Positions 904 to 60,903 of a DNA stretch of 64,000 nucleotides are shown piece after piece. Numbering within the stretch: the stretch's first letter is position 1; each line of letters starts with the position of its first letter. The notes under the pieces are model-generated. The model was not told the DNA's origin. It made no database searches and was given only the letters and a program-made list of their open reading frames with translations. This DNA comes from Candidatus Bathyarchaeota archaeon (GTDB lineage: Archaea; Thermoproteota; Bathyarchaeia; Bathyarchaeales; Bathycorpusculaceae), in assembly GCA_003151735.1 (NCBI GenBank), contig PLYI01000120.1, forward strand, positions 1 through 64,000, read 5' to 3'. Both the position numbers and the translations under genes were made by a program.

Positions 904-2061
904 ATGGTTCATACAAAGCTCTGCATTGTCACACACACCTTTCTACCGCATGTTGGCGGAATAGAAAAAGTGGTTAATGAACAAAGCAAGCGGCTGCGCA
1001 CAAGAAATTTTGAGCCCACAGTAGTTACCAACAGGATAGGCACACCCAAATACTACAAGGTTGACGGGGTACCTGTTGAATGCTATGAATCCCTCAACAC
1101 AGGGTTTAGGCTGGGAATTCCATATTCTATTCCAACTATACCCAGCTTCCCAACGTTTGTTAAGGCAGTAAAATCGAGCAAAATAATCCACGCCCACGGA
1201 CACCCGTACCTAACATCACTTATCGCAGCCAAACTCGCCAAATTCTACAGCAAACCGTTTGTGTTAACCCAGCATAACACCTTCATCGAATACAACAACA
1301 TCTTTGACCATGTCGAACGGTTAAACGATTTAGCCATCGGAAAACAGAACCTAAAAGCCGCAGACAAAATAATAGCGATTAGCGGCGCTACAAAAGAGTA
1401 CGTTCTAAGTTTAGGTGCCAAACCGAGCAAGGTTGAAGTCGCGTATAACGGCGTGGATTTGGAGCGGTTTCGACCTATCGATGGAAAACACGAGGAAATG
1501 CGAAAAAAGCTTGGCATATCCAAGAATGCCATCGTCGTCTTGACTGTGAGGCGGCTTGTATACAAGAACGGCGTTGACACACTACTAGATGCTGCCAACA
1601 TTGCGATCAAAAAGAATCCACGCATAGTTTTTTTGGCGGTTGGGAAGGGACCTGATTCTGACGGAGTCAAATTGAGGATTCAGCAGTTGGGAATTGAAGA
1701 TAATTTTAAGCTTGCAGGCTTTGTAAGTGACGAGGATTTACCGTTTTACTATAATGCCGCAGACCTGTTTGTGCTTCCTTCGAAATCTGGAGAAGGATTA
1801 CCTTTGGTTGCACTTGAAGCCATGGCATGCGCGCTACCAGTAATATCCACAGACGTTGGAGGAATACGAGAAATCCTGAAGGAGGATTACGGAAAACTGG
1901 TGCCACCCAACCAGCCAGAGTTGCTTGCAAAGGCAATTTTGGATTTTGCCGCGGTTGATTTTTCTTCACGCAAGAAAGAACTCCGCGCCATGATGGAGGA
2001 GAAGTTTAGTTGGGATGTGAACGTTGAAAGGCTTGTGGAAATATACGAAGAGCTTATTTAA
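904..2061 (+). CDS. GT4-family glycosyltransferase
   Basis: 385 aa. HVGGIEKVVNEQ, NGVDLERFRP and EGLPLVALEAMACALPVISTDVGGIREIL motifs. Confidence 0.9.
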   Translation: MVHTKLCIVTHTFLPHVGGIEKVVNEQSKRLRTRNFEPTVVTNRIGTPKYYKVDGVPVECYESLNTGFRLGIPYSIPTIPSFPTFVKAVKSSKIIHAHGHPYLTSLIAAKLAKFYSKPFVLTQHNTFIEYNNIFDHVERLNDLAIGKQNLKAADKIIAISGATKEYVLSLGAKPSKVEVAYNGVDLERFRPIDGKHEEMRKKLGISKNAIVVLTVRRLVYKNGVDTLLDAANIAIKKNPRIVFLAVGKGPDSDGVKLRIQQLGIEDNFKLAGFVSDEDLPFYYNAADLFVLPSKSGEGLPLVALEAMACALPVISTDVGGIREILKEDYGKLVPPNQPELLAKAILDFAAVDFSSRKKELRAMMEEKFSWDVNVERLVEIYEELI

Positions 2062-2106: not shown

Positions 2107-2841
2107 ATGACGTCAAAAGTTGAAATGGTCTCTGTTGTCATTCCGACACTCAACGAAGCAGGAAACATCCTAGAAGCTGTCTCTACTATTCATAATGACT
2201 TGTCTTATCCAAAAGAAATCATTGTTGTTGATGGCAACTCTACAGATGGGACTAAAGAAATCGTTCAGGGGTTAGATTACTGCAGACTCATCGTTGAACC
2301 CCGACGCGGCTATGGTTTAGCACTCATGACTGGAATGAAAAATGCCAAAGGCAACATCATCGTGATGGTTGACGGCGACGGAACCTATGAGGTGCGCCAC
2401 ATCAACCGTATGATTACAAAGATGATTGAGAAAGACGTAGACATGGTTTTAGCGACACGCATGTATGACCCCAACAAAGCCATGGGCATCATGAACTTTC
2501 TCGGTAACAAAGTCATCACAACCTTCTACGATTTCTTCTATGCCCAGTTCCTAAGCGACACCCAATCAGGTTTCCGCGCCATATCCCACCAAGCCATCGA
2601 CAACGTGGAGCTCAAGGCAAGTGACATGGCATATGCAACGGAGATGCTCATGCAATTCGCCAAAGAAGGATACACCATGCTTGAGGTTCCCACAACCTAC
2701 AAATCACGAAAATATGGCAGGCCGAAGCTGAGAAGATTTAAGTCAGGAATAGAGATATTTACGACTATGGTCAGGGGGATTCTGGATGCGGATACGATTA
2801 GAAAGTGCCAAGAGAATTGGAAGAAAAATCGGTTTAAATGA
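2107..2841 (+). CDS. GT2-family glycosyltransferase (dolichyl-phosphate sugar synthase-like)
   Basis: 244 aa. VVIPTLNEAGNI, VVDGNSTDGT, MVDGDGTYE, DTQSGFRA. Confidence 0.88.
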   Translation: MTSKVEMVSVVIPTLNEAGNILEAVSTIHNDLSYPKEIIVVDGNSTDGTKEIVQGLDYCRLIVEPRRGYGLALMTGMKNAKGNIIVMVDGDGTYEVRHINRMITKMIEKDVDMVLATRMYDPNKAMGIMNFLGNKVITTFYDFFYAQFLSDTQSGFRAISHQAIDNVELKASDMAYATEMLMQFAKEGYTMLEVPTTYKSRKYGRPKLRRFKSGIEIFTTMVRGILDADTIRKCQENWKKNRFK

Positions 2842-3313
2842 AGATAAAGGATACGCGGTCGCGATTTTTCTTGCTTTAATTATCGTTTCCGCCACAGTCA
2901 TAGGCTACTATGTTGTGCTTAGGCCACAAGCGGAACCCTACAATACAATCTACTTGCTTGACGCCAACAAAAAAGCAGTTGATTACCCAGAAACTTTAGT
3001 CGCTAACCAAAACAGCACTTTTAATGTGTATGTTACCATTGAAAACCATATGGCAACAAGCGCTAGCTATTTTGTTCAGGTAAAAATCGTAAACAACCTT
3101 CCAGCTACCTTCCCAGTTGACGCCCAACCAAGCCAAGTCATAGATATGGGCACCATAAACAACGATGGAAAACCAGTCCAGCAAACAGCAACCGTCACCC
3201 AAAACACGCCTGGAAGCTACTCCGTAGTTTTCGAGCTCTACAGAAACAACGGCGACGGCGCCCTCGTATTCACCCAAAACTACTGCGTCCTAAACATCCA
3301 AGTAACAAACTAA
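2786..3313 (+). CDS. DUF1616-like membrane-anchored protein
   Basis: N-terminal TM helix followed by a beta-rich domain (YLLDANKKAVDYPETLVANQNSTFNVYVTIENHM). Overlaps the GT2 3' end; true start uncertain. Confidence 0.6.
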   Translation: MRIRLESAKRIGRKIGLNEDKGYAVAIFLALIIVSATVIGYYVVLRPQAEPYNTIYLLDANKKAVDYPETLVANQNSTFNVYVTIENHMATSASYFVQVKIVNNLPATFPVDAQPSQVIDMGTINNDGKPVQQTATVTQNTPGSYSVVFELYRNNGDGALVFTQNYCVLNIQVTN

Positions 3314-4950: not shown

Positions 4951-6426
4951 TTAGGCTTTTTTGTGTCTTTCAGCGTATGCTTTCTCAATCGCAACGCGGT
5001 GGACGTTGTTGTAGGCGCAGAACGGAATTATTTTTAGGTCAGGCGTTATGTAGTGGACGACGCATCGGCGTACGCGGTTGACGTCGAAGTTATAAGAGTC
5101 CATGAACGCCATGCAGCCCAGCAAAAAGATTCTTCTGCGGATTTTGCCCAGCGACTGATAAGATGGCGAGAGGTGCATGCGCATAATAGAGGTCATTAGG
5201 GTTGGCATGCCGACTTCTTTGGTGACCAGTAACATGTCCATCGACAGCATTGAAGCCATGAATAGCGATGAGAGCAATGAGAATTTGCCTTTGGACTCTG
5301 CGTTTTCGGCGGTTTTGCGGATGCTGTTGAAGAAGCGGTCAAAGTTTACGAAGCGGTTGATCGGGAACATTTTGCCGCTTTTAGAAACGTAAACCCAGTT
5401 GACTATGCCGCACTGGGGGCTGCAGGAGAAAAGCGGCCAAGGTTTCTGCATAAATTTACGCATTATCTTAATGGGCGAAGTCATAACTGACATCGGATAC
5501 AAATCAGTGGTTTTTATTTCGCCGCCTGTTTGTTTTTCAACGTCCTCGGCAAAGCTCCATTCCCGGAAGTTTTCGCGGAACGGGTTTTCGGTGGCTCTAC
5601 CGGTGAAGGCGATTGGCTGGAAAATCAATCCTCGAACGATGTCAGTGTTTCGGGCGGCGAAGCGGATCATGTCGCCAACTTCGGTGTCGTTAAGGCTTTT
5701 CATAAGGGTGTTTACAAGGATGATTTCCATGTCGTATTTGCGGCAAACCTCAATAGCCTTAAGTTTAATGTTTAAGAGCTCGCGTCCCCTAACTTTTTTG
5801 TTGAATTCTTCGTGGAAACTGTCAAACGACAAATAAACAATGTTTAAGCCGCTGTCCTTTAGCCTCTTTGCGAGCCCTGGGGTGTCAACTAAATGTGTGC
5901 CATTGGTTGCCAAGATAGTCATGAACTTTAGTTTATGGGCAACAGCGATGATTTCAGGCATATCTTCCCGTTCGAGCGGTTCTCCACCTGAGAAGAGAAT
6001 TGCCGGGGGTTTAGGGTTAGCGTTGCTTGCGAACTCCAGCATTTTCACGAGGGCTTCTTTGGTGGGTTCATAATCTGCTTCTTGCTGGGGAAAAGTTGAG
6101 AAGCACACTGCACATTTGAAGTTGCAGCGTTTGGTTACGTCGATTACGCCTATGACTGTACCTGAAGCGTGGGTGGTGCAGGTTTCGCATTTGTAGGGGC
6201 AACCGTCGGGGTTTTTGGGTGCGTTGAGGTCGCCAAGGTACTGGAACTGATCGTATTTTTGCATGTGGTTGTAGATTGGGACGCTTTGCCAGTGGGTGGC
6301 TTTGAATTCGCCGTGTTCGGGGCATTGCTTTGTGATTTGGATTTTTCCGTTGGCTTGTGATAGTTGGGCGTCAATTTTTTTTTGGCATTCGGGGCAAATG
6401 CTTTTGGTTTCGCTTATATTAGCCAC
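4951..6426 (-). CDS. Radical SAM protein of the Tes/MJ0619-like family (tetraether synthase or related C-C bond/methylation enzyme)
   Basis: N-terminal CPEC zinc-ribbon-like segment, GCPYKCETCTTH, radical SAM CNFKCAVC, and C-terminal CVVHYITPDLKIIPFCAYNN. Confidence 0.75.
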   Translation of the reverse strand: MANISETKSICPECQKKIDAQLSQANGKIQITKQCPEHGEFKATHWQSVPIYNHMQKYDQFQYLGDLNAPKNPDGCPYKCETCTTHASGTVIGVIDVTKRCNFKCAVCFSTFPQQEADYEPTKEALVKMLEFASNANPKPPAILFSGGEPLEREDMPEIIAVAHKLKFMTILATNGTHLVDTPGLAKRLKDSGLNIVYLSFDSFHEEFNKKVRGRELLNIKLKAIEVCRKYDMEIILVNTLMKSLNDTEVGDMIRFAARNTDIVRGLIFQPIAFTGRATENPFRENFREWSFAEDVEKQTGGEIKTTDLYPMSVMTSPIKIMRKFMQKPWPLFSCSPQCGIVNWVYVSKSGKMFPINRFVNFDRFFNSIRKTAENAESKGKFSLLSSLFMASMLSMDMLLVTKEVGMPTLMTSIMRMHLSPSYQSLGKIRRRIFLLGCMAFMDSYNFDVNRVRRCVVHYITPDLKIIPFCAYNNVHRVAIEKAYAERHKKA

Positions 6427-7301
6427 CCTCCAAGCACTGCCTCAACTATCAAGGCTAAGGGAAGCAAAATCATCGTCATAGTTACTAAGCGTTCATACTT
6501 GCGTATGTTCTGGATTGTTGAACCTGACGTTATCAAACGAACTGAAGAGTAGATTAACAGAACACTCCACAGCAAAATAAGAGGCAAATAGTAAACGGTA
6601 AAGTGCCCCGCGAAAAATGGAATAGCGGGAAGAGGAGCAAGCAAACCTGTCAACAAGAAGAATATGGCGCCGACCTTGGCTGCGCTGACACTGCCGATTT
6701 TCTGCGGCAACGTTGGGTACCCAACTTTTGAGTCGCCATCTAAACTTAGGATATCGCGAAGGACGTTTCCACCGATGGTGCCGAAAGCTATTGGATAAAG
6801 AGTCAGCGAGATGATGCTTAGATTGTTGGTAACTGTTGCTTCACCAAACATGAAAGCGGTACCGGTTAAAACCCCAACTAAAACATTGGCGACAAAACCT
6901 GATTTGCGCTTGACCATATAAGAGTAAACTAAAAGCAAAAGCGAATCAACCGCGATTATCGCGAAGCTAAGCCAGTTGATGAAAGCAGCCATAACCAATC
7001 CTATTGCGAAGAGCACGCCTGAAACCGCCACAACCTGCTTAAGCGACAAAGCACCCGAAGGTATCGGGCGTTTTGGCTTGATTACTGCATCGCTTTCTCT
7101 ATCGAAGTAATCATTTATCGCAAAACCCGCCGAAGTAATAAATGCCATCGAGAAGAAAATCAACAAAATCATTTGCAAGCTCATATTAAGCGGGGCTTTT
7201 GTAATGGCGAAAGCCGTTAGTAGAGAGAGTCCTCCAGTCATCAGCCAGTAGGGAAGCCGCATCAAAGCAACTAAGGCTCTAGCTGACCCGGGAGCATTCA
7301 T
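6414..7301 (-). CDS. UbiA-family prenyltransferase, digeranylgeranylglyceryl phosphate synthase-like
   Basis: Multi-TM. NDYFDRESDAVIKPKRPIPSG and NVLRDILSLDGDSKVGYPTLP are typical of archaeal DGGGP synthases. Overlaps the radical SAM gene by 13 bp. Confidence 0.75.
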   Translation of the reverse strand: MNAPGSARALVALMRLPYWLMTGGLSLLTAFAITKAPLNMSLQMILLIFFSMAFITSAGFAINDYFDRESDAVIKPKRPIPSGALSLKQVVAVSGVLFAIGLVMAAFINWLSFAIIAVDSLLLLVYSYMVKRKSGFVANVLVGVLTGTAFMFGEATVTNNLSIISLTLYPIAFGTIGGNVLRDILSLDGDSKVGYPTLPQKIGSVSAAKVGAIFFLLTGLLAPLPAIPFFAGHFTVYYLPLILLWSVLLIYSSVRLITSGSTIQNIRKYERLVTMTMILLPLALIVEAVLGGWLI

Positions 7302-8242
7302 TTCTTAATTTTCCTGTCAGCGATGACTTCTTTGATGCTTTCTTCCAACGTTACTTTAGGTGTCCAGTTGAGTTCTTTTTTGGCTTTGGTAATATCGAAC
7401 CAGATTTTGGTTACGTCGCCTTGCCAAGAAACGCCTGTGGTTGTTATCACGGTTTTATCTTGCAGATTGAGGATTGTAAGTATCAACTGCGATAGGTCTA
7501 TTATGGATGTGGTTTTACCTAGCCCCAAGTTATAGACTTGACCGTTAACATAATCTTCTGAACCCACCTTAACCAAGGCTTCCACCACATCAGAAACATG
7601 TACAAAATCGCGGCATTGCTTGCCAGTTCCGATGATTTCAAGTTTATTTGGGTTCTTGGCTAGTTTATCAAGGAAGTCATGGATAACGCCGTGGCATCGC
7701 AGGCCGTAAACGTTGGCGAACCGTGTAATTACTATGTCTAAGCCGTATTGTTCACGGTACATTTGGCAGTATTCTTCGCCTACCACTTTGGATAAGCCGT
7801 AGCATGAGAACGGGTGAAAGCCATATGATTCGGGAGTTGGAAACACTGTTGGGTTGCCGTAAACTGCGGCGCTGGAGGCAAAAACTACTTTTGCATCATC
7901 TTTTCGGGCTTTTTCTAAAACACACAATGTTCCTTTAGCGTTAGTCTCAAAATCAACCAGAGGGTTCTCCATAGAGTAACCGACGACAACTTGTGCTGCC
8001 AAATGGTAGATTAAATCACTCCTCGGTAAGCCGCATAGGGTTTTGACGTCCAGTATGTCGCCTCTTACGAATTTGGCTATGGACACATCTTTTACGTTTT
8101 TCATCAGGCCGCTTGACAGGTTATCATAAATCGTTAAATCATCAGTTAACTGTGACAGTTTACTGCATAGGTGATAGCCTATGAAGCCTGCTCCACCAGT
8201 AACTAACACTTTTTTCCCTTTCAATTCAGCCCCCCAGATCAC
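7298..8242 (-). CDS. NAD-dependent epimerase/dehydratase (UDP-glucose 4-epimerase-like SDR)
   Basis: VTGGAGFIGYHLC, YGLSKVVGE, DFVHVSDVV. 4-bp overlap with the UbiA gene. Confidence 0.88.
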   Translation of the reverse strand: MIWGAELKGKKVLVTGGAGFIGYHLCSKLSQLTDDLTIYDNLSSGLMKNVKDVSIAKFVRGDILDVKTLCGLPRSDLIYHLAAQVVVGYSMENPLVDFETNAKGTLCVLEKARKDDAKVVFASSAAVYGNPTVFPTPESYGFHPFSCYGLSKVVGEEYCQMYREQYGLDIVITRFANVYGLRCHGVIHDFLDKLAKNPNKLEIIGTGKQCRDFVHVSDVVEALVKVGSEDYVNGQVYNLGLGKTTSIIDLSQLILTILNLQDKTVITTTGVSWQGDVTKIWFDITKAKKELNWTPKVTLEESIKEVIADRKIKK

Positions 8243-8280: not shown

Positions 8281-9111
8281 ATGTCGCCCGTGAAAACTAT
8301 AAAAACTTTTAGGGATTTGCTGTCTTTCCTCACCATCATACCAGTTGGGGGAAAAGAAGATTTTATTTTCACGACGGCGGAGAACGTTTGGCTTTTTCCA
8401 TTGCTAGGCGGCTTCATAGGCTTGCTTGGCGCAGCTTACTTTTTAGGCTCAAGCGTATTAGTTGGGTTTTTGCTGAGTTTAGCTAATTCGGTTGTTGCAT
8501 TGCCAGTTGGTTTTTTGGATAAACTAATTCCGGCTGCAATGACTGTAGCTTTCCTTTTAGTTTTAACTGGGCTGCAGCATTTCGACGGATTAATCGATTT
8601 AGGCAACGCAGTTGGATTGCGAAATGTGCATGATAGAAAAATGGTTGCGCATGCTTGGACAGTAACCTATTCAGGGGCTGTTTTGGCGTTGGTTGTCGAG
8701 TTTGCGGCTTTTGTGGGACTGTTTTTAATTAATCCACTTTTTGCTTTCGGCGCAATATTGGCGGCTGAAGTCGCAGCTAAATTAGCGATGGTAACGATTG
8801 TTTGGGTCGGCAAACCAAGCCATAAAGGACTTGGCTCGATTTTCCTCTCCAAAGCCAAAAAAAACCTGAATATCGTGGCTTATGTGATTGCTGTTTTGAT
8901 TGTTTACCCATTCTTCTCCCTGACCGGTAACCCGCTTTTAGGCTTGGTAGGCGTTGGCATAGTTTTAGTCAGTATTCCCGTTGCGTTTGTTATGGAAAAG
9001 GTTTCTGAGGGCGTTTTCGGCGGGGTTTCAGGAGACATGATTGGCGCCACCAACGAGGTTGCAAGGGCTGTGGCGCTGGTTTTGTTTGCGGTGGTGCTGA
9101 TGCTGATATGA
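8281..9111 (+). CDS. cobS: Adenosylcobinamide-GDP ribazoletransferase
   Basis: 276 aa membrane protein. RDLLSFLTIIPVG, LQHFDGLIDLGNAVG, GGVSGDMIGATNE. Confidence 0.9.
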   Translation: MSPVKTIKTFRDLLSFLTIIPVGGKEDFIFTTAENVWLFPLLGGFIGLLGAAYFLGSSVLVGFLLSLANSVVALPVGFLDKLIPAAMTVAFLLVLTGLQHFDGLIDLGNAVGLRNVHDRKMVAHAWTVTYSGAVLALVVEFAAFVGLFLINPLFAFGAILAAEVAAKLAMVTIVWVGKPSHKGLGSIFLSKAKKNLNIVAYVIAVLIVYPFFSLTGNPLLGLVGVGIVLVSIPVAFVMEKVSEGVFGGVSGDMIGATNEVARAVALVLFAVVLMLI

Positions 9112-9743
9112 TGGCGCCTGCTTTGATTATGGCTGGCGGCAAAGGAACCCGCATGGGGGTGCCCACTGAGAAGCCGCTGTTGCCGTTTTTGGGTAAGCCG
9201 CTGGTTGATTGGGTTGCAGAAGCAATTTTGGATGCAAAAAAAATTTCTGATTTTTACGTTGTAACGAGTTCTAACACGCCAGAAACCGAAAAACATTGTA
9301 TAGCTAAGGGCTGGAAGGTTCTGCACACAGATGGAAAAGGCTACCATAACGACCTTAAACAAGCAGTATCTAAAGCGAATTTGACTGGCCCAGTTCTCAC
9401 AATGCCCTCAGATGTGCCTGCAATAACAGGAAAAGTGCTCGACAAAATAATCGAGGCATTTGAGTTTTGCGGCAAAGATTTCTTAGCGGTCTTTGTACCT
9501 ATCAAGTCGCGGCAGAACTTGGGCTTGTCCATTTCATCCACCGATGAATACAATGGCGAATGGTACGCGGTTTCAGGAGTTAACATCATAAACGGCGTTA
9601 AAATCCAAGGTGAAGGAAAAATCGAGACAAGCGCCATAATCACAGAGGAAACCGAAGTGCTCCTAAACATCAACACGACTAAGGACTTGGAAATAGCAGA
9701 GAGAATAATGAAAGAAAAAGATAACGCTATCCATAAGCGGTAA
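9108..9743 (+). CDS. cobY: GTP:adenosylcobinamide-phosphate guanylyltransferase
   Basis: LIMAGGKGTRMGVPTEKPLLPFLGKPLVDWV and NINTTKDLEIAERIM. 4-bp overlap with cobS. Confidence 0.88.
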   Translation: MMAPALIMAGGKGTRMGVPTEKPLLPFLGKPLVDWVAEAILDAKKISDFYVVTSSNTPETEKHCIAKGWKVLHTDGKGYHNDLKQAVSKANLTGPVLTMPSDVPAITGKVLDKIIEAFEFCGKDFLAVFVPIKSRQNLGLSISSTDEYNGEWYAVSGVNIINGVKIQGEGKIETSAIITEETEVLLNINTTKDLEIAERIMKEKDNAIHKR

Positions 9744-14494: not shown

Positions 14495-15922
14495 ATGAGC
14501 ATCCTTAGCCACGACAGCTTCTGGAACGCAGTTATAACGCTGCCTATGACTAAAAAAATGCTCCAGCTGTCACTGAAAAGATGCGGCGCCTGCGGAAGAA
14601 CCGTTCTTGAAGCGGCATTGGACGATTACGGCGGTAAAACCGACCGGCACTGTGCGAAATGCAGTGGGCTGTACTCGCAAGTTATTGGTTTTTGGGTTGA
14701 GTTCCTGCGGCGAAGCCTCAACATTAAACGGGCGAAAGTTGAAAAACTCTTAACCGACCCGTACGCGAGAAGGGCAGTAATCAACTTGACAAAGTCGTTT
14801 GCTTACATGGGCATAAAAAAACCCATCTCACTCTACGCGCCATTTCTCATCGTTTGGGATTTTACCCACAAATGCAACCTCAACTGCAAACACTGCTATT
14901 CAAACAGCGGCGCAGTCCAAGAAGACGAATTAACAACCCAGCAAGCCATGGCAGTCGTGGACCAGCTTGCCGATGCTGGGGTGACGGCGCTAGCTTTTTC
15001 AGGCGGCGAACCGTTGACTCGAAAAGACTTCTTTGAAGTAGCAGCTCACGCGGTTAAACGGGGCCTGTATATTTCAGTTGCAACCAACGGCACATTAGTC
15101 ACAAAGGAAAACGTGAAGAGGCTCAAGCAAACAGGCGTCCACTACGTTGAAATCAGCATTGACGGCGCAACCGCCAAAACCCACGATGAATTCCGAGGCG
15201 TCCCAGGAGCCTTCGACAAAGCAGTAACGGGACTTAGGAACTGCGTTGAAGCAGACCTGTGCGCTTGCATCGCTACAACAGTCACAAAAGCCAACCTTGA
15301 AGAAATGCCAGCCATCGTGACTTTGGCAGAGGAAATCGGTGCAGAAAGATTCACCTACTTCAACTTCATCCCAACAGGACGCGGAAAAGCACACTACGAC
15401 CAAGACCTCTCAGCGCAGGAACGGGAAAAACTCATGCGTTACCTGGTAAACCGCATGTCCACAGGATGCAAAACCACCATTCTAACCACAGCGCCCCAGC
15501 TTGCCCGCGTTGCGTTGCAGTGTCAGGGTGCTTCGGGAACAGGGGAGGTTGTGATGTCTATGGCGCACATGCAAACCGCGAAGGTAACCAAAAAAGCCGT
15601 GCCTCTGGCTGATTTCATCGGCGGCTGCGGCGCAGGAAGGTTATATTGCTCGCTGTCACCGCAAGGCGACGTCCACCCATGCGTGTTCCTGCCTGTGAAC
15701 GTGGGGAACCTGAAAACCGAAAAGTTCCAAGACATCTGGCTAAACGCACCCCTCTTCAACTCTTTCCGAAACAGGGCAAATCTGAAGGGCTCCTGCGGAA
15801 AATGCGATTACAAGTTTATCTGCGGCGGCTGCAGGGCACGTTCAGCAGCATACCATGACGGTGACATGCTCGATGGTGACCCAGGCTGCATAATGGGATT
15901 GAAGGGTGCTAAAAGTGCCTAA
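14495..15922 (+). CDS. Radical SAM/SPASM-domain protein with N-terminal zinc-ribbon-like segment
   Basis: CGACGRTV..CAKC; CNLNCKHC radical SAM motif; C-terminal CGKCDYKFICGGCRARSAAYHDGD. Confidence 0.85.
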   Translation: MSILSHDSFWNAVITLPMTKKMLQLSLKRCGACGRTVLEAALDDYGGKTDRHCAKCSGLYSQVIGFWVEFLRRSLNIKRAKVEKLLTDPYARRAVINLTKSFAYMGIKKPISLYAPFLIVWDFTHKCNLNCKHCYSNSGAVQEDELTTQQAMAVVDQLADAGVTALAFSGGEPLTRKDFFEVAAHAVKRGLYISVATNGTLVTKENVKRLKQTGVHYVEISIDGATAKTHDEFRGVPGAFDKAVTGLRNCVEADLCACIATTVTKANLEEMPAIVTLAEEIGAERFTYFNFIPTGRGKAHYDQDLSAQEREKLMRYLVNRMSTGCKTTILTTAPQLARVALQCQGASGTGEVVMSMAHMQTAKVTKKAVPLADFIGGCGAGRLYCSLSPQGDVHPCVFLPVNVGNLKTEKFQDIWLNAPLFNSFRNRANLKGSCGKCDYKFICGGCRARSAAYHDGDMLDGDPGCIMGLKGAKSA

Positions 15923-16877
15923 CGTAGCGCAGAAAACGGTTAAGATTTTTCAAGTTAAAGATGACATTAGCGCCATTGTAAATGAAGCTGTTGCCAATTC
16001 AGGGTTGCGTGGAAAAAGCAAAATTTTCATTAAACCCAACCTAAGCCACCCAGAGTACTTGCCGGGTGTGGTAACCAGCCCAGAGTTGATGCAGCAACTT
16101 GTTGGTTTGCTTCGGGACGGCAACAGCGAAGTCATCGTGGGCGAATCCAACGGCTTCAACTATCCCTGCTGGACAGCCTTTGACAAAACAGGCGCCGAAG
16201 CAGCTGTCAAAAAAGCCGGTGGCACGGTAATCAACCTCTCAGAAGACAAGCTGGTAGAAGTGAAGTTTCAGGGCAACACGCCACTAAAGAGGCTGTTTCT
16301 ACCCAAAACCATCTTGGACGCAGACGCCATTGTGGATTTGCCGTTGATGAAAACACATGAGTTCATGGCTTACAGCGGCGCCATAAAGAACCTGTTCGGC
16401 TGCGTGCCCAGCAACAAACGAATCTATTTGCACCCGTACCTGCCAGAGGTTATGTATCGACTATATACACTTTTCAAGCCGCAGTTAACGATAATGGATG
16501 CCAGAGTTGGCATCGAAGGCAACGGACCCACAAAAGGCAAACCCGTCAAAATGGATTTAATGCTAACAGGCAACGACGCATTAGCCCTCGATATAACCGC
16601 CGCCAAAGTCATGATGCTGAACTGGAAAGAAACCTACCTAAACTACATCGCCAAAAAAACAGGCATGCTTGAAGAAGACATCAAAGCCAACGGATTAACA
16701 GTGTCCGAAGTTGAACACAGGTTTGAGCCGCCAAAAATTGATTTGCCTGTAAAAGCGCAAATGATGGTTTACCAGCATGAGTATCTGACGAAAGTGCTTT
16801 TCTGCTCATTGGATGTTGTTAAACTGTTCCAGAAAGTGACCGTGGTGTATCGTGGCAAACCCGTCGAAATCGGTTAA
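15906..16877 (+). CDS. DUF362-domain protein
   Basis: IFIKPNLSHPEYLPGVVTSPELMQQLV, PLMKTHEFMAYSGAIKNLFGCVP. Overlaps the preceding gene by 17 bp. Confidence 0.85.
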   Translation: MLKVPNVAQKTVKIFQVKDDISAIVNEAVANSGLRGKSKIFIKPNLSHPEYLPGVVTSPELMQQLVGLLRDGNSEVIVGESNGFNYPCWTAFDKTGAEAAVKKAGGTVINLSEDKLVEVKFQGNTPLKRLFLPKTILDADAIVDLPLMKTHEFMAYSGAIKNLFGCVPSNKRIYLHPYLPEVMYRLYTLFKPQLTIMDARVGIEGNGPTKGKPVKMDLMLTGNDALALDITAAKVMMLNWKETYLNYIAKKTGMLEEDIKANGLTVSEVEHRFEPPKIDLPVKAQMMVYQHEYLTKVLFCSLDVVKLFQKVTVVYRGKPVEIG

Positions 16878-19845: not shown

Positions 19846-20400
19846 ATGGAAACCACATTAAAAATTAAAGCTGAAAGTGACCGAAAGGTCTGGTTTTCCA
19901 TGTGGTTCTTGGGGGCAATCGTCACTTTTGGCATAGCGTTTTTCCCCATGTTTTATCGTTTAGTCGAGGGCAGAAACAATCATTTCCGAAAAGAGGCAGA
20001 GTTTGAGGAACAAATTGCTGCCTGCGCGGAAAAGAGAGATAAGGAACCTCAAGCAAAAACTGAGCTGTATAAACCAATGAACGCAAAGGCTTGGGCAGCC
20101 AGCATCATATTTGTTGTGCCAGTTTTTGTTCTCCTGTATGTACTCTCCAAGGATTTAGCGGTTCACGAACGCAACCAAGACGCTTTCCTTGCGGCTGCTC
20201 TACCCGAACGAGTGTTTATGCCACAGACCATACCGATAAAAACATATGCGGTGTTAACTTTAGTTACGTTAGGCGTTGGGGCAGTATACTGGCTATACAA
20301 AGTAGTTAACTTGTATAACGCTCACTTTAAAGCACACTTACAAGTGCAGAAAGAGTTGGGCAGGCTGATGGAGGAAGAGAAAATTGTCGAGCATATGTAA
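19846..20400 (+). CDS. Hypothetical membrane protein
   Basis: 184 aa, about four predicted TM segments. Overlaps cobD by 17 bp. Confidence 0.6.
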   Translation: METTLKIKAESDRKVWFSMWFLGAIVTFGIAFFPMFYRLVEGRNNHFRKEAEFEEQIAACAEKRDKEPQAKTELYKPMNAKAWAASIIFVVPVFVLLYVLSKDLAVHERNQDAFLAAALPERVFMPQTIPIKTYAVLTLVTLGVGAVYWLYKVVNLYNAHFKAHLQVQKELGRLMEEEKIVEHM

Positions 20401-21493
20401 AAAACGCAGATTCGTTAGCCACGGCGGCGACATCTGGGGATTCAGCAGAAAATACAACATCCCCCTAGACGAAGTGCTCGAGTTCAGCGGACCCATAAAC
20501 TTCCTCGGTCCATCACCAAAAGCCATCGAAGCAGTGAAGCAAAACGCAAAACTTATTCGGTATTATCCTGACCCGAACCCAGTGGAGTTCAAGGAAGAAA
20601 TCGCCCAGTATGTCGGCAGCGGCGTTAAGCCAGAAAACATTCTCTTAGGCAACGGGTCAATCGAACTCATCTACATGATAACTGAGATTCTGCCAAAAGG
20701 CTTCAAAGCGCTTATCCCTGTGCCTTCATTTTCAGAGTATGAGAAGGCAGCTTTGCGCGTTGGCGGCGAACCCTTGTTTCTTCAGCTGCCCCAAGATTTT
20801 ACGTTGGAAACGGATAAAATCAAGAAAGCAGTCACCGAAGACACAAAGATAATATGTATTTGCAACCCTCATAGCCCGTCGGGAACGCTCTATAGCAAAG
20901 AGGCACTTTTGGATCTGGCTGAGTTCTGCAATAGAAAAGACATTATTCTTAGCGTTGACGAAAACTACATCGAATTCGATGATAAAAGCATGGATAATAC
21001 GTTGGCTGGCATGGTTAAGGACTATGAGAACCTGTTTGTTATTCGTTCGGTTACAAAATTCTACGGCATGGCGGGCATACGGTTTGGCTACGCGGTTGCT
21101 GCTGGAAATCTAATCGATAAACTTCAGACCACACGACTGCCATGGAGTATTAACGGCTTAGCATGCCAGGTTACGCTTGCAGCGCTTAACGACAAAGAAT
21201 TTATTAAAAACACTAAAGAAACCATCGCCAAAGAACGAGCGGCACTTGCCAAAAGCCTAAGCGGAATCGAAGGTTTACATGTTTACCCATCTGTAACCAA
21301 CTTTTTGCTGGTAAAAATAGAGAACCCCAAACTCACATCCACCATGCTCAAGGAACTTCTCGCCAAAGAACGCATTCTAATTCGCGATTGCTGCACCTTC
21401 ATGGGCTTAGACGACCACTACTTCAGAGTCACCGTGCGCTCGGCGAAGGACAACCAAAAACTAACAGAAACAATAAAGCAGATAATAGGTTAG
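20384..21493 (+). CDS. cobD: Aminotransferase class I/II, threonine-phosphate decarboxylase-like
   Basis: HGGDIWGFSRKYNIPLDEVLEFSGPINFLGPS (HGG N-terminus typical of CobD); NPHSPSGTL; RSVTKFYGMAGIRFGYAV. Confidence 0.75.
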   Translation: MSSICKKRRFVSHGGDIWGFSRKYNIPLDEVLEFSGPINFLGPSPKAIEAVKQNAKLIRYYPDPNPVEFKEEIAQYVGSGVKPENILLGNGSIELIYMITEILPKGFKALIPVPSFSEYEKAALRVGGEPLFLQLPQDFTLETDKIKKAVTEDTKIICICNPHSPSGTLYSKEALLDLAEFCNRKDIILSVDENYIEFDDKSMDNTLAGMVKDYENLFVIRSVTKFYGMAGIRFGYAVAAGNLIDKLQTTRLPWSINGLACQVTLAALNDKEFIKNTKETIAKERAALAKSLSGIEGLHVYPSVTNFLLVKIENPKLTSTMLKELLAKERILIRDCCTFMGLDDHYFRVTVRSAKDNQKLTETIKQIIG

Positions 21494-22395: not shown

Positions 22396-23823
22396 GTGCC
22401 CGCTAAACCCAAACAGAAAAATTCTAAACCCAAAACCGAAAACAACACCATCCTACTCATGACCACAGCTCCGCCAGAAAACGGCGCATGGTACCACGGC
22501 AAAGCATTGCCTCCAATCGGCTTAATGTATGTTGCCGCTGCCCTTGAAAAAGCAGGCTTCAAGGTTCAAATGCTCGACAACTACCTCATGAAAAAGTCGA
22601 CAGACGAAGTCAAAGAATTAATAACTAAAATTAACCCGCAAATCGTGGGAATAACCTGCGGTTCAGCCACTTACCCGCGGTGCATAGAAACTGCCAGAGC
22701 CATCAAACAGGTAAATCCCAACTGCAAAATTGTGGTCGGCGGATGGCACGCATCATATATGCCTGATAGTTTGCTGGCAAACCCCGAAATCGACTACGTC
22801 GTGATGGGTGAAGGCGAAAGGGCAGTCACTGAACTCGCATTTGCCATAACAAGCGGCAACCAAACCCAAGCCGCAGCCATCGCAGGCGTCGCGTTCAAGC
22901 TTAACGGCGAAAACATCAAGATCCAACCTAAATTCATCGAAAACATGGATGAACTCCCCTACCCCGCAAGACATCTGCTGCCACTTGGACTCTACGACAG
23001 AACCATCGAGTACATAGACGCTAAACCCGCCGACGTCATGAGCATCTCACGCGGCTGCGTCTTCAACTGCGGCTTCTGCGAAACCCGTAAGCTTTGGGGA
23101 AACATCTGCCGAGGCTTCAGCCCAAAAAGAGTCATCGGCGAAATCCAAGACCTACAAAGTAGATACGGCACTAAGGGAATTTACTTTATCAACGATAACT
23201 TCACGTTGCGAAAAAAAGAAACCGCTGAACTTTGCAACCTGATGATTGAGAACAAACTGGATTTAGAATGGGTTTGCGACACACGAGTGGACCTCGTGAA
23301 CAATGAGCTTTTAGCTCTGATTAGTAAGGCTGGGTGCAAGACCATCTGGTTCGGCGTGGAGTCAGGTTCACCGCGAATTCTAAAGCGCATTGGCAGAAAT
23401 ACAACTCCAGAGCAGGTGGAGACTGCGTTTAAGCTCTGTAGGAAAAACAACATAAAAACCGCTTGCTCCTTCATGCTTGGCTTGCCAGATGAAACATTAA
23501 AGGACATGGAAACATCCCTAAAATTCGCAAAGAAACTCAGTCCCGACTGGTGTCAATTCAACACTTTCATCGCTTATCCTGACAGTAGACTCTACAATGA
23601 ACTGCTTGAAAAAGGGAATTATGTGAAGTTGGATGAGTTTTTGCTCAGCGTAAAAACCGATGAATTCGACTACAACTCGCTCATGGCGGTTCAACGACGC
23701 TTCTTCAAGGAATTCCACATGACACCAAAACAAATAATGAAGCGAGTCAGACGCGAAGGCGCAATAAACTTTGCAAAACGCAGACTCATGGGCGGCACAA
23801 AGAAGAGCACAGGAATCGCCTAA
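22396..23823 (+). CDS. B12-binding domain radical SAM protein
   Basis: N-terminal B12-type domain (PPIGLMYVAAALEKAGFKVQMLDNYL, VVGGWHAS); CVFNCGFC radical SAM motif. Confidence 0.88.
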   Translation: MPAKPKQKNSKPKTENNTILLMTTAPPENGAWYHGKALPPIGLMYVAAALEKAGFKVQMLDNYLMKKSTDEVKELITKINPQIVGITCGSATYPRCIETARAIKQVNPNCKIVVGGWHASYMPDSLLANPEIDYVVMGEGERAVTELAFAITSGNQTQAAAIAGVAFKLNGENIKIQPKFIENMDELPYPARHLLPLGLYDRTIEYIDAKPADVMSISRGCVFNCGFCETRKLWGNICRGFSPKRVIGEIQDLQSRYGTKGIYFINDNFTLRKKETAELCNLMIENKLDLEWVCDTRVDLVNNELLALISKAGCKTIWFGVESGSPRILKRIGRNTTPEQVETAFKLCRKNNIKTACSFMLGLPDETLKDMETSLKFAKKLSPDWCQFNTFIAYPDSRLYNELLEKGNYVKLDEFLLSVKTDEFDYNSLMAVQRRFFKEFHMTPKQIMKRVRREGAINFAKRRLMGGTKKSTGIA

Positions 23824-36633: not shown

Positions 36634-38043
36634 TTGAAGAATAAATGTGAAGTTGAAATGAAGCCTCACGTAACCTTAGTTAACCCTGCCGCTCCAGTGG
36701 GCGCTGCAATGCACATGCCTTTTGCACTGTTGGGTTTGGGGTATTTGGCGGCTGTTTTAGAGAAAAACAACTACAAGGTTGACGTAATCGACTGTCAAGT
36801 GCTTAAGCTCTCTTTTGAAGATTTTAAAAGCGAGATAAGCAAGCGTCAACCCGACATCGTTGGGGTAACTTCATCCACGTTGACTTATCAGACAGCTCTG
36901 AAGTTAGTTAAGATTGCCAAAGAGGCTTGCCCAAACTGTATAACCCTCGCGGGCGGTTCACACGTTACTTTTTGGGATGACCACGCATTGGAAGAGTGCT
37001 CAGAACTCGACATCGTAATCAGAAAAGAGGGCGAAAACACGATGTTGGAGTTGGTGCAGCGAATCGAAGCGGGCAAAAGTTATTTCGACGTTTTAGGCAC
37101 CACTTGCCGTAGAGAAGGCAAAATCGTCAGAAATCAAGATAGAACCTACATTGAGGATTTGGACAGTTTGCCCTTCCCAGCGCGTCATCTTTGGCCAATG
37201 GAGAAGTTCCGCGAACTCGAAGATATCCTTTATTTAGCGACCAGCAGAGGATGCGTCTACTGGTGTGAATTCTGCACAACAGTGAGGATGCATGGACGCA
37301 AATACCGCATGCGTAGTCCCAAAAACGTAGTAGATGAATTAGAGTTTCTGAATAAAACTTATGGCGTGAAAAAATTCACTTTTTGTGATGACGCGTTCAC
37401 CGTGGACCAACCTAGAACTGAAGCGCTTTGCAGCGAAATTCTTCAGCGTGGTTTGAAGATTGAATGGAACTGTGGCACACGAGTAGATATGTTAACCCAA
37501 GAGTTGCTAACTAAAATGAAGGCAGCTGGATGTGTTTCCGTCTGGTTCGGTGTTGAATCAGGAACACAGCAGGTTTTGGATGCAATGAAAAAAGGAATCA
37601 CTCCTGAATTAACCATGAAAGTTTTGGGTTGGGTACGAGAGGCAGGTTTGATGCCTGTTCCAAACGTTATCCTTGGATTCCCAGGGGAAACAATGCAAAG
37701 CGCTTGGAAAACTATCAAGTTTGTCGAGAAGGTGGCTCCTGACGCCGTTGGGTTCTACAATGTTGCAACGCCCTTTCCTGGCACACCCATGTATGATTTG
37801 GTTAAGGAGAAGGGGTGGCTGAGAATAACTGACTTTGACATGTACGACACGACCAAACCGATTTTTGAGACACCGCAGCTTAGTATGAAAGAACTCGGCA
37901 AACTACGCGAAGGCGCATTCCACCACTACTACCTGCGAAGGGAGTACTTTTTTGAGAAGAAAAGACGCTTTAAACTGTCAACGGCACTGGTTGTCGGCGT
38001 GCACCTGATTGCTAATATTAAACTTAAGCTCAGAAGAAGCTGA
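36634..38043 (+). CDS. B12-binding domain radical SAM protein
   Basis: HVTLVNPAAPVGAAMHMPFALLGLGYLAAVLEKNNYKVDVIDCQ; CVYWCEFC motif. Confidence 0.88.
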   Translation: MKNKCEVEMKPHVTLVNPAAPVGAAMHMPFALLGLGYLAAVLEKNNYKVDVIDCQVLKLSFEDFKSEISKRQPDIVGVTSSTLTYQTALKLVKIAKEACPNCITLAGGSHVTFWDDHALEECSELDIVIRKEGENTMLELVQRIEAGKSYFDVLGTTCRREGKIVRNQDRTYIEDLDSLPFPARHLWPMEKFRELEDILYLATSRGCVYWCEFCTTVRMHGRKYRMRSPKNVVDELEFLNKTYGVKKFTFCDDAFTVDQPRTEALCSEILQRGLKIEWNCGTRVDMLTQELLTKMKAAGCVSVWFGVESGTQQVLDAMKKGITPELTMKVLGWVREAGLMPVPNVILGFPGETMQSAWKTIKFVEKVAPDAVGFYNVATPFPGTPMYDLVKEKGWLRITDFDMYDTTKPIFETPQLSMKELGKLREGAFHHYYLRREYFFEKKRRFKLSTALVVGVHLIANIKLKLRRS

Positions 38044-48915: not shown

Positions 48916-50367
48916 TTGATGCGTGTTTGCCTCATAAATCCACCTCGAATTCAGCCTAAAGCATGGGGAAAACCCAACGTTTTTCCACCTATTGCCATGG
49001 CTTCAGTCGCCGCGGTCCTCGAAAAAAAACATGCAGTTAGCATCATTGATGCTCCGACAGAGGGCTGGGAGAACCTTTTGGAGCTGGATCAAACCAAGTA
49101 CCGAGTTGGGTTAAGCGCGGAAACCATTGCAGAACGAGTCGCGCGGTGGAAGCCTGATGTGGTAGTCTTAGAGATCCCATTTTCGGGCTGGTCTAAAACC
49201 GCATTTGAAGTCGCAGCCACAGTAAAAAAGGTCGGCAGAGAGATTGTTGTTGTTTTGTTTGGGTTGCATCCTTCATCACGTCCAGAAGATTGCCTTACAA
49301 ACGTTGATGTTGATTTTGTTGTGGTTGGCGAACCCGAAAACACTGTCTCCGAATTGGTTGGTGCATTAGAATATGGAAAGAGAGATTTTAGCGGCATTGA
49401 TGGTTTAGGTTTTAGGAAAAGTGGCAAGCCAGTTCTCACACGCAAGCGTACTGTGATTGAGAACTTGGATTCGCTCCCGTTTCCAGCTAGGCATTTGCTG
49501 CCAATGGACGTTTACACCAAAGCCGTTAAACAGAATCCCTTGCGCGGCGAAATCCACAAACCCTACACCATAATAATCACGAGTAGAGGCTGCCCCTACA
49601 ACTGCGTTTTCTGCTCAAGCTGCGTGGTCTGGGGAAAGCAGTGGCGTCCACGGAGCGCAGAGAACGTGGTAGATGAAATTGAACAGGTAATCAAAACTTT
49701 TGGAATTCGGCAGGTTGATTTTTCAGATGATAACATGACGTTGGATAAGCAACGTATGGCGGAGATTTGCGATTTAATTGTTGAGCGTAGCTTGAGGTTT
49801 GAGTGGTTTACGCCAAACGGTATCAGAGCAGACACGCTTGATGAACCGCTCCTTCGGAAGATGAAGGCGGCTGGCTGCAAAAAAATCCGCATTGCTCCCG
49901 AATCAGGCGTTCAGCGCGTTGTTAATGAGGTTATCAAAAAGAACTTGGACCTCAAAACAGTTGAGGAAGCGGTGGTTTTGTGCAAACGCGTCGGCATCAA
50001 AGTCGGCTGCTTCTTTGTCATAGGTTTAATCGGAGAAACCAAAGCAGACATCGAAGAAACCATCAATTTTGCTTACAAACTCAAGGAATTGGGAGCGGAC
50101 ACCTTCATCTTCAGCATCGCCATGCCACTCTACGGAACAGCGTTCTATGAGCAGGCAAAACAAAAGGGGTTTTTGCGCGAAGGATTCTGCGATTATGCTT
50201 TGGCGGCGACTGAGCCGCAGGTTGAGACGCCAGAGTGGTCGGCGAGGGATTTGCAGGAGCTGTGCATGAAGGCTAACTTGGTTAATCCGACGTTTACTCG
50301 GGGCAAGGTTTTGAGGGCGATTCGGAATCCGAAGAAAACGGCTAAGTTGCTGCTGAAGAGAAAGTAG
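48916..50367 (+). CDS. B12-binding domain radical SAM protein
   Basis: RVCLINPPRIQPKAWGKPNVFPPIAMASVAAVLEK; CPYNCVFC motif. Confidence 0.88.
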   Translation: MMRVCLINPPRIQPKAWGKPNVFPPIAMASVAAVLEKKHAVSIIDAPTEGWENLLELDQTKYRVGLSAETIAERVARWKPDVVVLEIPFSGWSKTAFEVAATVKKVGREIVVVLFGLHPSSRPEDCLTNVDVDFVVVGEPENTVSELVGALEYGKRDFSGIDGLGFRKSGKPVLTRKRTVIENLDSLPFPARHLLPMDVYTKAVKQNPLRGEIHKPYTIIITSRGCPYNCVFCSSCVVWGKQWRPRSAENVVDEIEQVIKTFGIRQVDFSDDNMTLDKQRMAEICDLIVERSLRFEWFTPNGIRADTLDEPLLRKMKAAGCKKIRIAPESGVQRVVNEVIKKNLDLKTVEEAVVLCKRVGIKVGCFFVIGLIGETKADIEETINFAYKLKELGADTFIFSIAMPLYGTAFYEQAKQKGFLREGFCDYALAATEPQVETPEWSARDLQELCMKANLVNPTFTRGKVLRAIRNPKKTAKLLLKRK

Positions 50368-53442: not shown

Positions 53443-54927
53443 TTGAGTAACATAAAGTCGGGGAACAACGTGAAAGCCCACGTAGCGCTTGTAAATCCAC
53501 CATACCCAGTCGAAGCGCCGCAAGCCATCTTTCTCCCGCTCGGCATTGGTTACTTGACGGCGGTGTTGGAGGAAAACGGGTACACGGTGGATGTGGTGGA
53601 TTGTCAGACGACGCATCCCACCCAAAAAGAGCTTGAAGACAAATTCAGAAGCTTAAACCCGGACATAATCGGCGTTACATCCGCCACACTCACTTACATG
53701 CCTGCCCTTGACATCTTGAAAGCTGCAAAATCTGCCCTGCCAAACGTAACCACCATGATTGGTGGACCACACGTGACGGTTATGGATGAGCAAGTTTTCA
53801 CTGAGAGCAATGACGTAGACATTGTGGTGCGCAGCGAGGGAGAGCAAACCATGCTGGAGCTAGCGCGTTTAGCGTCTGAGGGCAACCTCAAAAACCTCGA
53901 CCAAGTTTTGGGCATAACCTTCAAAAACAACGGCAAAGTTATCCGCAACCCCGACCGCCCATTCATGCAGGATATAGACTCACTTCCCTATCCAGCACAC
54001 AAACACTTTGAGGTTGGAAAATACAAAATCCTCAACAGAACCTATTTACCCATAGTCACAAGTCGAGGCTGCCCTTTCAGCTGCACCTTCTGCGCAGGAT
54101 ACAAGATGTGCGGAAGAGGCTTCCGAGCTCGGAGTCCAAAGAAAGTTGTTGACGAACTGGAGTGGCTCCGAGACGAGTTTGGGGGAGGCGCTTTTGCGTT
54201 TTACGATGATACTTTCACATTCGATGTGAACAGGGCAATTGCTATTTGCGATGAAATGAAGAAACGCAAATTTGATTTGCCATGGGATTGTAGAACAAGA
54301 GTCGACAAGGTATCCAAAGAGCTTTTAGTTAAACTGCGGAGTTCAGGGTGCCAACTTGTCCACTTCGGCGTTGAATCAGGCAGCCAGCAAATGCTGAATT
54401 TGATGCGTAAAGGCACCACTGTCGAGCAGAACGCTCAGGCAATTAAATGGGCTAAGAAAGCAGGGATATCCGCCGCAATATCGCTGGTCATTGGCTACCC
54501 CACTGAAACACCCGAGCAACTGCAGCAAACCATCGACTTCACATACAAAACAAAACCAGACTACGTTTACATGTGTGAAGCGGTTCCTTATCCGGGCACA
54601 GAACTCTACGATTACACTAAAAAATTAGGGATAGAATTGTCCAAGGACTGGAGCCAATACCATGAGCAAACCCAAGTCTTCCAAAACACGCTCCTGCCGC
54701 TGGAGAAGCTAAATCAGACAAAGAAAGACTTCTACGACCACTACTTATCCCCTACCTTCTACCTGCGCAAAAAACTCAAAGGTGACTTCTACAGCCAAAT
54801 AATGGCACGCAGCGCACTCAATCACATTGTCGCAAACAACAGCTTAGCCCGATGGGTGCTTAGAAAGCTGTATCATCCTAAGAAGAGTCCCGGTGGGCAT
54901 AGTACGCCAAGCAAACAGCAAGAATAG
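53443..54927 (+). CDS. B12-binding domain radical SAM protein
   Basis: VALVNPPYPVEAPQAIFLPLGIGYLTAVLEENGYTVDVVDCQ; CPFSCTFC motif. Confidence 0.88.
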   Translation: MSNIKSGNNVKAHVALVNPPYPVEAPQAIFLPLGIGYLTAVLEENGYTVDVVDCQTTHPTQKELEDKFRSLNPDIIGVTSATLTYMPALDILKAAKSALPNVTTMIGGPHVTVMDEQVFTESNDVDIVVRSEGEQTMLELARLASEGNLKNLDQVLGITFKNNGKVIRNPDRPFMQDIDSLPYPAHKHFEVGKYKILNRTYLPIVTSRGCPFSCTFCAGYKMCGRGFRARSPKKVVDELEWLRDEFGGGAFAFYDDTFTFDVNRAIAICDEMKKRKFDLPWDCRTRVDKVSKELLVKLRSSGCQLVHFGVESGSQQMLNLMRKGTTVEQNAQAIKWAKKAGISAAISLVIGYPTETPEQLQQTIDFTYKTKPDYVYMCEAVPYPGTELYDYTKKLGIELSKDWSQYHEQTQVFQNTLLPLEKLNQTKKDFYDHYLSPTFYLRKKLKGDFYSQIMARSALNHIVANNSLARWVLRKLYHPKKSPGGHSTPSKQQE

Positions 54928-59511: not shown

Positions 59512-60903
59512 ATGAATGCAATCAAGACAAAAGTAGCTCTCATAACTCCGCCAGTTTTAGCGAAGGTTGCGCATCACCCGCTTTTTCCACCGCTTGGCTT
59601 AGCTTACATGGCAGCAGTGCTGGAGCAGAACGGTGTTGAAGTTAAAATCATTGATTCTCCCGTCTTAGATTTTGACCACCAAAAAATCAAAGCGGAACTC
59701 GAAGCCTACCAACCGACAATAGTCGGCGTTGGCTCTATGACTCCCACGATTGAGTCGGCACTAAAATGTGCCCAGATAGCTAAAGAAGCTGCACCAGACG
59801 CCCAAGTTCTAATGGGAGGTCCACACGCTACTTTTGCCGACACCGAAATTTTAACCAACGAAAAAGCCGTCGACGTTATAGTGCGGGGCGAGGGCGAAGA
59901 AACAATCGTTGAACTTGCTAAACAAACATCCCTAAATGACATAAAGGGGATAAGTTTCCGCAAAGACAACCAAATAATAAAAACAGCCGCAAGGCAATTC
60001 ATCCAAAACCTCGACGCACTGCCAAAACCTGCATACAAATACCTGCCAATGAAAAAATACAACATCACTGGACGCAACTTACTTCCAATCATTAGTAGCA
60101 GAGGCTGCCCCTTCCAATGTCCTTTCTGCGTTGCTACACAAATGTTTGGGGCACAATTCAGAGCTCGAAGCCCAAAAAACGTTCTGGATGAACTTGAATG
60201 GCTCAGAGACGAATATGGCGCAGAAGGAATTGCTTTCCAAGATGACACATTAACCTTTGATAAAAAACGTACAGTAGACATATGCGATGGTATAATTGAG
60301 AGAAAAATCAATTTGCCATGGGGCTGCGGAACCCGCGCCGACGTGGTTACCAAAGAAGTCTTAGATAAGATGAGTAAGGCTCACTGCAACGAGACAATGT
60401 TTGGAGTGGAATCAGGATGCCAGCGAATGCGCGACGTTTTGAAGAAGAGAGTTTCAACCGAACAAATTGAAAAAGCGATTAAATGGACAAAAGAAGCAGG
60501 CATATTCGTCACTGTATCAGTCATTTTAGGGTATCCAGGCGAAACAAAGGAAACCCTGCAGGAGACACTGGATTTTGTTCGAAGAGTAGAGCCTGACGAC
60601 GTGTGGCTTTGTCACGCGACGCCTTATCCTGGAACCTGTCTTCGTGAGTTAGTGAAGAGTAACGGGTGGAAGATGTCGGAGAACTGGGAGCTATACAATA
60701 CCATGAACCCCATCTTTGAGGATCCAGCTTTGCCAGCTAAAGAAATTGCAGAAATGCGTAAGAGTTTTTACAACAAGTTTTACTCGCCCAAATATGTCAT
60801 GCGGCAGGCAGTGAAAGGCTACGTAAGAGGAAACTTGTACAGCAAGATTATGACCAGAACCGCGGCAAATTATATGCTTTGGAGAGCAAAAGCCCGTCTT
60901 TAA
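59512..60903 (+). CDS. B12-binding domain radical SAM protein
   Basis: VALITPPVLAKVAHHPLFPPLGLAYMAAVLEQNGVEVKIIDSP; CPFQCPFC motif. Confidence 0.88.
   Translation: MNAIKTKVALITPPVLAKVAHHPLFPPLGLAYMAAVLEQNGVEVKIIDSPVLDFDHQKIKAELEAYQPTIVGVGSMTPTIESALKCAQIAKEAAPDAQVLMGGPHATFADTEILTNEKAVDVIVRGEGEETIVELAKQTSLNDIKGISFRKDNQIIKTAARQFIQNLDALPKPAYKYLPMKKYNITGRNLLPIISSRGCPFQCPFCVATQMFGAQFRARSPKNVLDELEWLRDEYGAEGIAFQDDTLTFDKKRTVDICDGIIERKINLPWGCGTRADVVTKEVLDKMSKAHCNETMFGVESGCQRMRDVLKKRVSTEQIEKAIKWTKEAGIFVTVSVILGYPGETKETLQETLDFVRRVEPDDVWLCHATPYPGTCLRELVKSNGWKMSENWELYNTMNPIFEDPALPAKEIAEMRKSFYNKFYSPKYVMRQAVKGYVRGNLYSKIMTRTAANYMLWRAKARL

Follow-up and report, generated by a model that had tools for sequence, protein, structure and literature searches.

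Results

Gene content and organization of the locus

The DNA analysed here (the window, 64,000 nucleotides of GenBank contig PLYI01000120.1) corresponds to contig C111 in the Bathyarchaeia genome G000 (3.5 Mb, 98% complete, 5.36% contaminated), and our analysis concerns three open frames on its minus strand, which in 5' to 3' order code for a nucleotide-sugar epimerase (EPI), a UbiA prenyltransferase (UbiA2) and a radical S-adenosylmethionine (SAM) protein of the tetraether lipid synthase (Tes) family (Tes2) (Table 1). EPI and UbiA2 overlap by 4 bp (7298-7301) and UbiA2 and Tes2 by 13 bp (6414-6426), and the overlapping three-gene operon proposed in an initial annotation was confirmed, with its frames, both overlaps and the peptides it had quoted all found. 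UbiA2 and Tes2 are co-directional in 81/81 loci (several per genome in some cases), with UbiA2-Tes2 overlaps of mostly 4 or 13 bp and EPI-UbiA2 overlaps of mostly 4 bp, and because all 81 are same-strand with recurring overlaps, the arrangement is not due to chance. An assembly artefact or contamination of the bin was also considered and rejected, since the locus was found again in many independent named Bathyarchaeia metagenome-assembled genomes (MAGs). Among named records, Candidatus Bathyarchaeota and Bathycorpusculum MAGs come closest, and most of these have the same operon, with Tes2 83-93% identical. The solved proteins nearest to EPI are archaeal and bacterial GalE-type epimerases.

Table 1. 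Features of the operon and of its surroundings in the window
Feature	Position	Strand	Description
Tes2	4951..6426	-	Tes-family radical SAM, 491 aa, GTG start, operon gene 3
UbiA2	6414..7301	-	DGGGP-synthase-like UbiA prenyltransferase, 295 aa, operon gene 2; PF01040
EPI	7298..8242	-	GalE-like NAD-dependent nucleotide-sugar epimerase, 314 aa, operon gene 1; Pfam Epimerase/GDP_Man_Dehyd
CobS2	8281..9111	+	Diverged second CobS-family membrane protein, PF02654; divergent, 38 bp from EPI
CobY2	9108..9743	+	Second CobY-like nucleotidyltransferase, NTP_transf_3; overlaps CobS2 by 4 bp
GT4 glycosyltransferase	904..2061	+	Pfam GT4; heads same-strand run in family f4
GT2 glycosyltransferase, AglJ/dolichyl-phosphate-hexose-transferase-like	2107..2841	+	NCBIfam AglJ 144 bits, cut-off 325
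DUF1616 single-pass membrane protein	2786..3313	+	PF07760 in window and in loci L079 and L076
aa, amino acids; DGGGP, digeranylgeranylglyceryl phosphate.

Tes2 is a second Tes-family protein

The radical SAM protein of the window is a Tes-family protein. It scores 465.8 bits against the NCBIfam Tes equivalog NF045702 (cut-off 450), on which six diverse relatives score 457-496 bits, and its best sequence match in the PDB is 7tol (1.5e-113, residues 6-484), the protein MjTes, also described as glycerol dialkyl glycerol tetraether (GDGT)/macrocyclic archaeol synthase (GDGT-MAS). Its predicted structure (pLDDT 86) fits the MjTes crystal structure 7tom over the full length, with a TM score of 0.89. 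Among 41 Tes2 sequences, compared with the residues reported for MjTes (PMC9433317), the rubredoxin site C9-C12-C33-H36, the N-cluster C73-C77-C80 plus His, and the radical SAM CX3CX2C are invariant, and all 41 keep C338, C455 and C470 of the C-terminal cluster as well as Met439 and Tyr459, described in MjTes as labile and strictly conserved, respectively (PMC9433317). With the cut-off passed, a full-length structural match and all metal ligands retained, the earlier assignment to the Tes/MJ0619 family stands. Other residues are consistently replaced in the same 41 sequences, namely H440A (which adjoins Met439), H335S, H167T, A109F, Q141, T148 and N266, and Ser271 is Ala (S271A) in nearly all; some of these clade-specific substitutions fall in active-site segments.

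Three other identities were rejected. Pterin methylase is the old annotation of MJ0619, which is contradicted by the finding that MJ0619 itself is Tes (PMC9433317); the glycerol monoalkyl glycerol tetraether (GMGT) synthase Gms has a SPASM domain, for which Tes2 gave no hit; and the TrsS radical SAM (seleno)protein model NF045646 reached 317 bits against a cut-off of 490, its best stretch covering residues 6-314 only.

The same genome carries a canonical Tes on contig C81 (664 bits, against 466 for the window copy) that is 38% identical to Tes2. A maximum-likelihood tree built from 68 sequences, MA_1114 and Saci_0703 not among them, has a 100/100 branch that parts all Tes2 from MjTes and all canonical copies (Tes1), so the affinity to Tes holds for the family and not for a place inside the clade of the characterised or canonical enzymes. 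The initial annotation had read the operon as the genome's own second prenyl addition and tetraether step, which was not borne out, as the canonical Tes (C81) and a DGGGP synthase (C25) lie elsewhere; of the two findings it had named as speaking against it, another Tes was found and a pterin-methylase identity was not. Given the canonical Tes elsewhere, the module has to be regarded as accessory. One further genome of the genus encodes a third Tes-family protein, a distant one (G044:C103:4879-6162, 33% identical).

UbiA2 and its acceptor motif

UbiA2 finds its best PDB sequence match in the DGGGP synthase (DGGGPS) 6m31, and its fold matches the DGGGPS structures 7bpu and 6m31 with a TM score of about 0.8 (7bpu E 2e-12). 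It is 31% identical to the canonical copy on C25, and UbiA2 sequences form their own clade (100% bootstrap) on a long separate branch. Against the DGGGP synthase NCBIfam cut-offs of 269/296 it scores 168/163 bits, and the C25 copy falls below them as well (238/193). The motif NDxxDxxxDAxxxPxRPIPSG, taken earlier as typical of DGGGP synthases, is indeed present, but it is not diagnostic, because solved chlorophyll synthases share it.

Motif 1 (N62, D66, D70), motif 2 (Y125, K130) and D180 and D187 of motif 3 are kept in UbiA2. The complete motif 3 of DGGGPS (D180-x2-D183-x3-D187 with the GRE segment) is not found, as GREI(T/V)K..D..GD has become GGN(V/I)LRD.LS..GD, that is, GRE is replaced by GGN and D183 by S. 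This mismatch is weaker than it appears, because the canonical C25 copy itself lacks D180. In MjDGGGPS, mutations of motifs 1 and 3 impair binding of geranylgeranylglyceryl phosphate (GGGP), and hardly that of geranylgeranyl diphosphate (GGPP) (PMC9385802). Because motif 3 is altered and such mutations act on GGGP binding, it is plausible that UbiA2 uses an acceptor other than GGGP.

Distribution and synteny

Carriers were called at more than 460 bits for Tes2 and more than 240 bits for UbiA2 in 151 genomes of the class. Tes2 was present in 30 of them and UbiA2 in the same 30, adjacent in 30/30 (Fisher p 2e-32, kinship ignored). A second Tes-family match, counted as canonical Tes, occurs in 28/30 Tes2 genomes; a UbiA other than UbiA2 was found in 29/32 genomes searched, about 25 of these holding an ortholog of the C25 copy. 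Among 300 genomes of the phylum, nothing above 386 bits was found for Tes2 outside two families, f1 and f4.

EPI lies upstream of UbiA2 in all extended loci but that of genome G143. In genus g16 of f4, GT4, DUF1616, EPI, UbiA2 and Tes2 follow one another on one strand with 44-48% identity to the window (weaker for DUF1616), and after them come CobS2-CobY2 and the distal glycosyltransferases also seen in the window. The EPI-UbiA2-Tes2 block is inverted as a whole between f1 and f4, which argues that it is one unit. In G090, which belongs to the same genus and is 90% complete, Tes2, UbiA2 and CobS2 are all absent, through loss of the block or a gap.

Neighbouring genes

The conserved block also holds a glycosyltransferase and the DUF1616 protein, and the GT2 gene is retained in f1 and, within f4, in G411. 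The view of the operon as a lipid module with sugar genes gained support. A second CobS/CobY pair, absent from the initial annotation, is conserved beside the operon. Within the order, CobS2 occurs in 16/17 Tes2 genomes and in 0/44 without Tes2; its copies score 108 and 91 bits on CobS TIGR00317 (cut-off 110), where L036 also has a canonical copy that reaches 180, and throughout the CobS2 set the signature DGLLDFGDG...MHD is replaced by DGLxDLGNA...AHxW. The other CobS copy of the window's genome is at G000:C118:74816-75571. The solved protein nearest to CobY2 is CobY 2mzb, and CobY2 stays beside CobS2 in f1 and f4. A CobD-like pyridoxal phosphate enzyme (window 20384-21493 and L079 13377-14516; 294 and 299 bits, CobD cut-off 290.55) also stays near CobS2/CobY2 in both families.

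Elsewhere in the window, a radical SAM/SPASM protein (AhbD/NirJ-like, below cut-offs) overlaps a DUF362 protein (14495-16877), and the pair is conserved in f1 and, among f4, in G411. A family of six very large proteins recurs along the contig (11290-14118, 25997-35268, 39370-42237, 44747-47605); they appear to be secreted surface proteins with PQQ-like repeats and C-terminal membrane anchors. Five putative B12-binding-type radical SAM proteins were noted (22396-23823, 36634-38043, 48916-50367, 53443-54927, 59512-60903), of which the one at 22396-23823 was scanned and is BchE-like, below cut-off.

Discussion

Our results show that a Tes paralog and a DGGGP-synthase paralog are present together, conserved in their coupling and co-occurrence, with catalytic residues retained and specificity residues altered, and on balance we favour the view that an accessory lipid pathway, apart from bulk GDGT synthesis, has EPI-UbiA2-Tes2 as its core in two Bathyarchaeia families. 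From the enzyme families we infer the chemistry and, with it, the order of the steps, the acceptor, the polar head and the final product, as follows. UbiA2 would most likely attach a geranylgeranyl chain to an acceptor that is a relative of GGGP but not GGGP itself, and the general geranylgeranyl reductases of the cell would saturate the chain. Through the radical mechanism of Tes, Tes2 would then link chain ends into a dedicated ether lipid, membrane-spanning (or macrocyclic), while EPI would provide a nucleotide sugar and GT4/GT2, perhaps with CobY2/CobS2, would build the polar head. A role of CobY2/CobS2 in head-group attachment is a guess made from their type of reaction, a nucleotidyltransferase with a membrane transferase. 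Since a linked second pair of enzymes lies beside sugar genes and the standard versions are elsewhere, the carriers probably make an extra membrane-spanning glycolipid. That this would be a new glycolipid class, with a non-GGGP backbone taken by UbiA2 and cross-linked by Tes2 and a head activated and attached by a cobamide-derived CobY/CobS pair, seems to us rather doubtful.

Several points weigh against an accessory pathway. The altered residues are no proof of a new substrate, and MjTes binds head groups non-specifically (PMC9433317), so that Tes2 could take ordinary archaeol lipids as substrates. GGGP synthase (GGGPS) is single copy in Tes2 carriers, where a second one was looked for and none was found, and an extra geranylgeranyl reductase was likewise rejected, as the number of these reductases gives the same picture in non-carriers. 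The operon of G143 has no EPI, and the linkage of CobS/CobY could stem from an inherited order of genes next to others for cobamides. The literature searched gave no lipid data for these organisms.

Some of these points fit redundant isozymes, in which UbiA2 would be one more DGGGP synthase and Tes2 one more ordinary GDGT or macrocyclic-archaeol synthase for other conditions, the sugar genes serving head-group synthesis only. We regard this as possible, if unlikely. The fold and the catalytic residues are retained, Tes2 passes the Tes family cut-off, and MjTes tolerates many head groups (PMC9433317); some methanogens also have two Tes copies, and in Methanosarcina acetivorans the second homolog behaved differently, giving only trace macrocyclic archaeol (PMC8941075). 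However, Tes2 and UbiA2 form deep separate clades with consistent specificity changes, motif 3 of UbiA2 among them, and the two paralogs are strictly paired with each other and not with the canonical pathway.

The linkage to EPI, GT4, the AglJ-like GT2 and DUF1616 could also reflect a membrane-spanning anchor for a surface glycan, for which UbiA2 would prenylate an acceptor that is not glycerol, such as a sugar, supplied with the help of EPI, the glycosyltransferases would extend the glycan and Tes2 would fuse the tail to a membrane lipid. A DUF1616 protein is among the Haloferax N-glycoproteins (PMC8241124), and membrane phosphoribosyltransferases are among the relatives of UbiA (8j8j/8j8k, which UbiA2 matched by fold), but UbiA2 is nearest to DGGGPS by both sequence and fold, and no oligosaccharyltransferase or flippase was identified within the conserved block, which makes such an anchor improbable. 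The residue exchanges close to the third cluster and to the SAM loop (H440A, H335S, S271A) would be in keeping with a Tes2 that no longer couples chains and performs another radical reaction, e.g. hydroxylation, methylation or thiolation, on the UbiA2 product; we give this very little credence.

An accessory pathway would matter in practice, as GDGT producers are recognised by Tes as their marker gene, which also feeds into paleoclimate studies, and because this Tes-family clade is probably of different specificity, a Tes hit does not always stand for GDGT synthesis. The module gives concrete genes for a putative extra lipid in archaea that are abundant in sediments. A dominant marine Bathyarchaeia lineage makes unusual butanetriol dialkyl glycerol tetraethers (BDGTs) (PMC12694404). 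A link of the module to BDGT synthesis is speculation. The BDGTs of Methanomassiliicoccus luminyensis are made by backbone methylation.

Compared with the Tes/GDGT-MAS enzymes (MJ0619, MA_1486, Maeo_0574), Tes2 is alike in domain order, rubredoxin site, three [Fe4S4] sites, Met439, Tyr459 and full-length fold, but it is about 37% identical to MjTes, stands in a separate clade with clade-specific substitutions, and is always found beside UbiA2 and nearly always EPI, in addition to a canonical Tes. MA_1114 of M. acetivorans is likewise a second Tes-family copy besides a canonical one, though in our data it is not known to lie next to a UbiA gene. UbiA2 shares with MjDGGGPS (6m31/7bpu) the fold, motifs 1 and 2, D180 and D187, and differs from it in the GRE to GGN and D183 to S changes, its long separate branch and the canonical copy elsewhere in the genome. 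Gms, like the Tes family, is a radical SAM enzyme forming C(sp3)-C(sp3) bonds in archaeal tetraethers, but it carries a SPASM domain where Tes2 has none, and Tes2 has the N-terminal zinc-ribbon-like domain of HMPTM/Tes.
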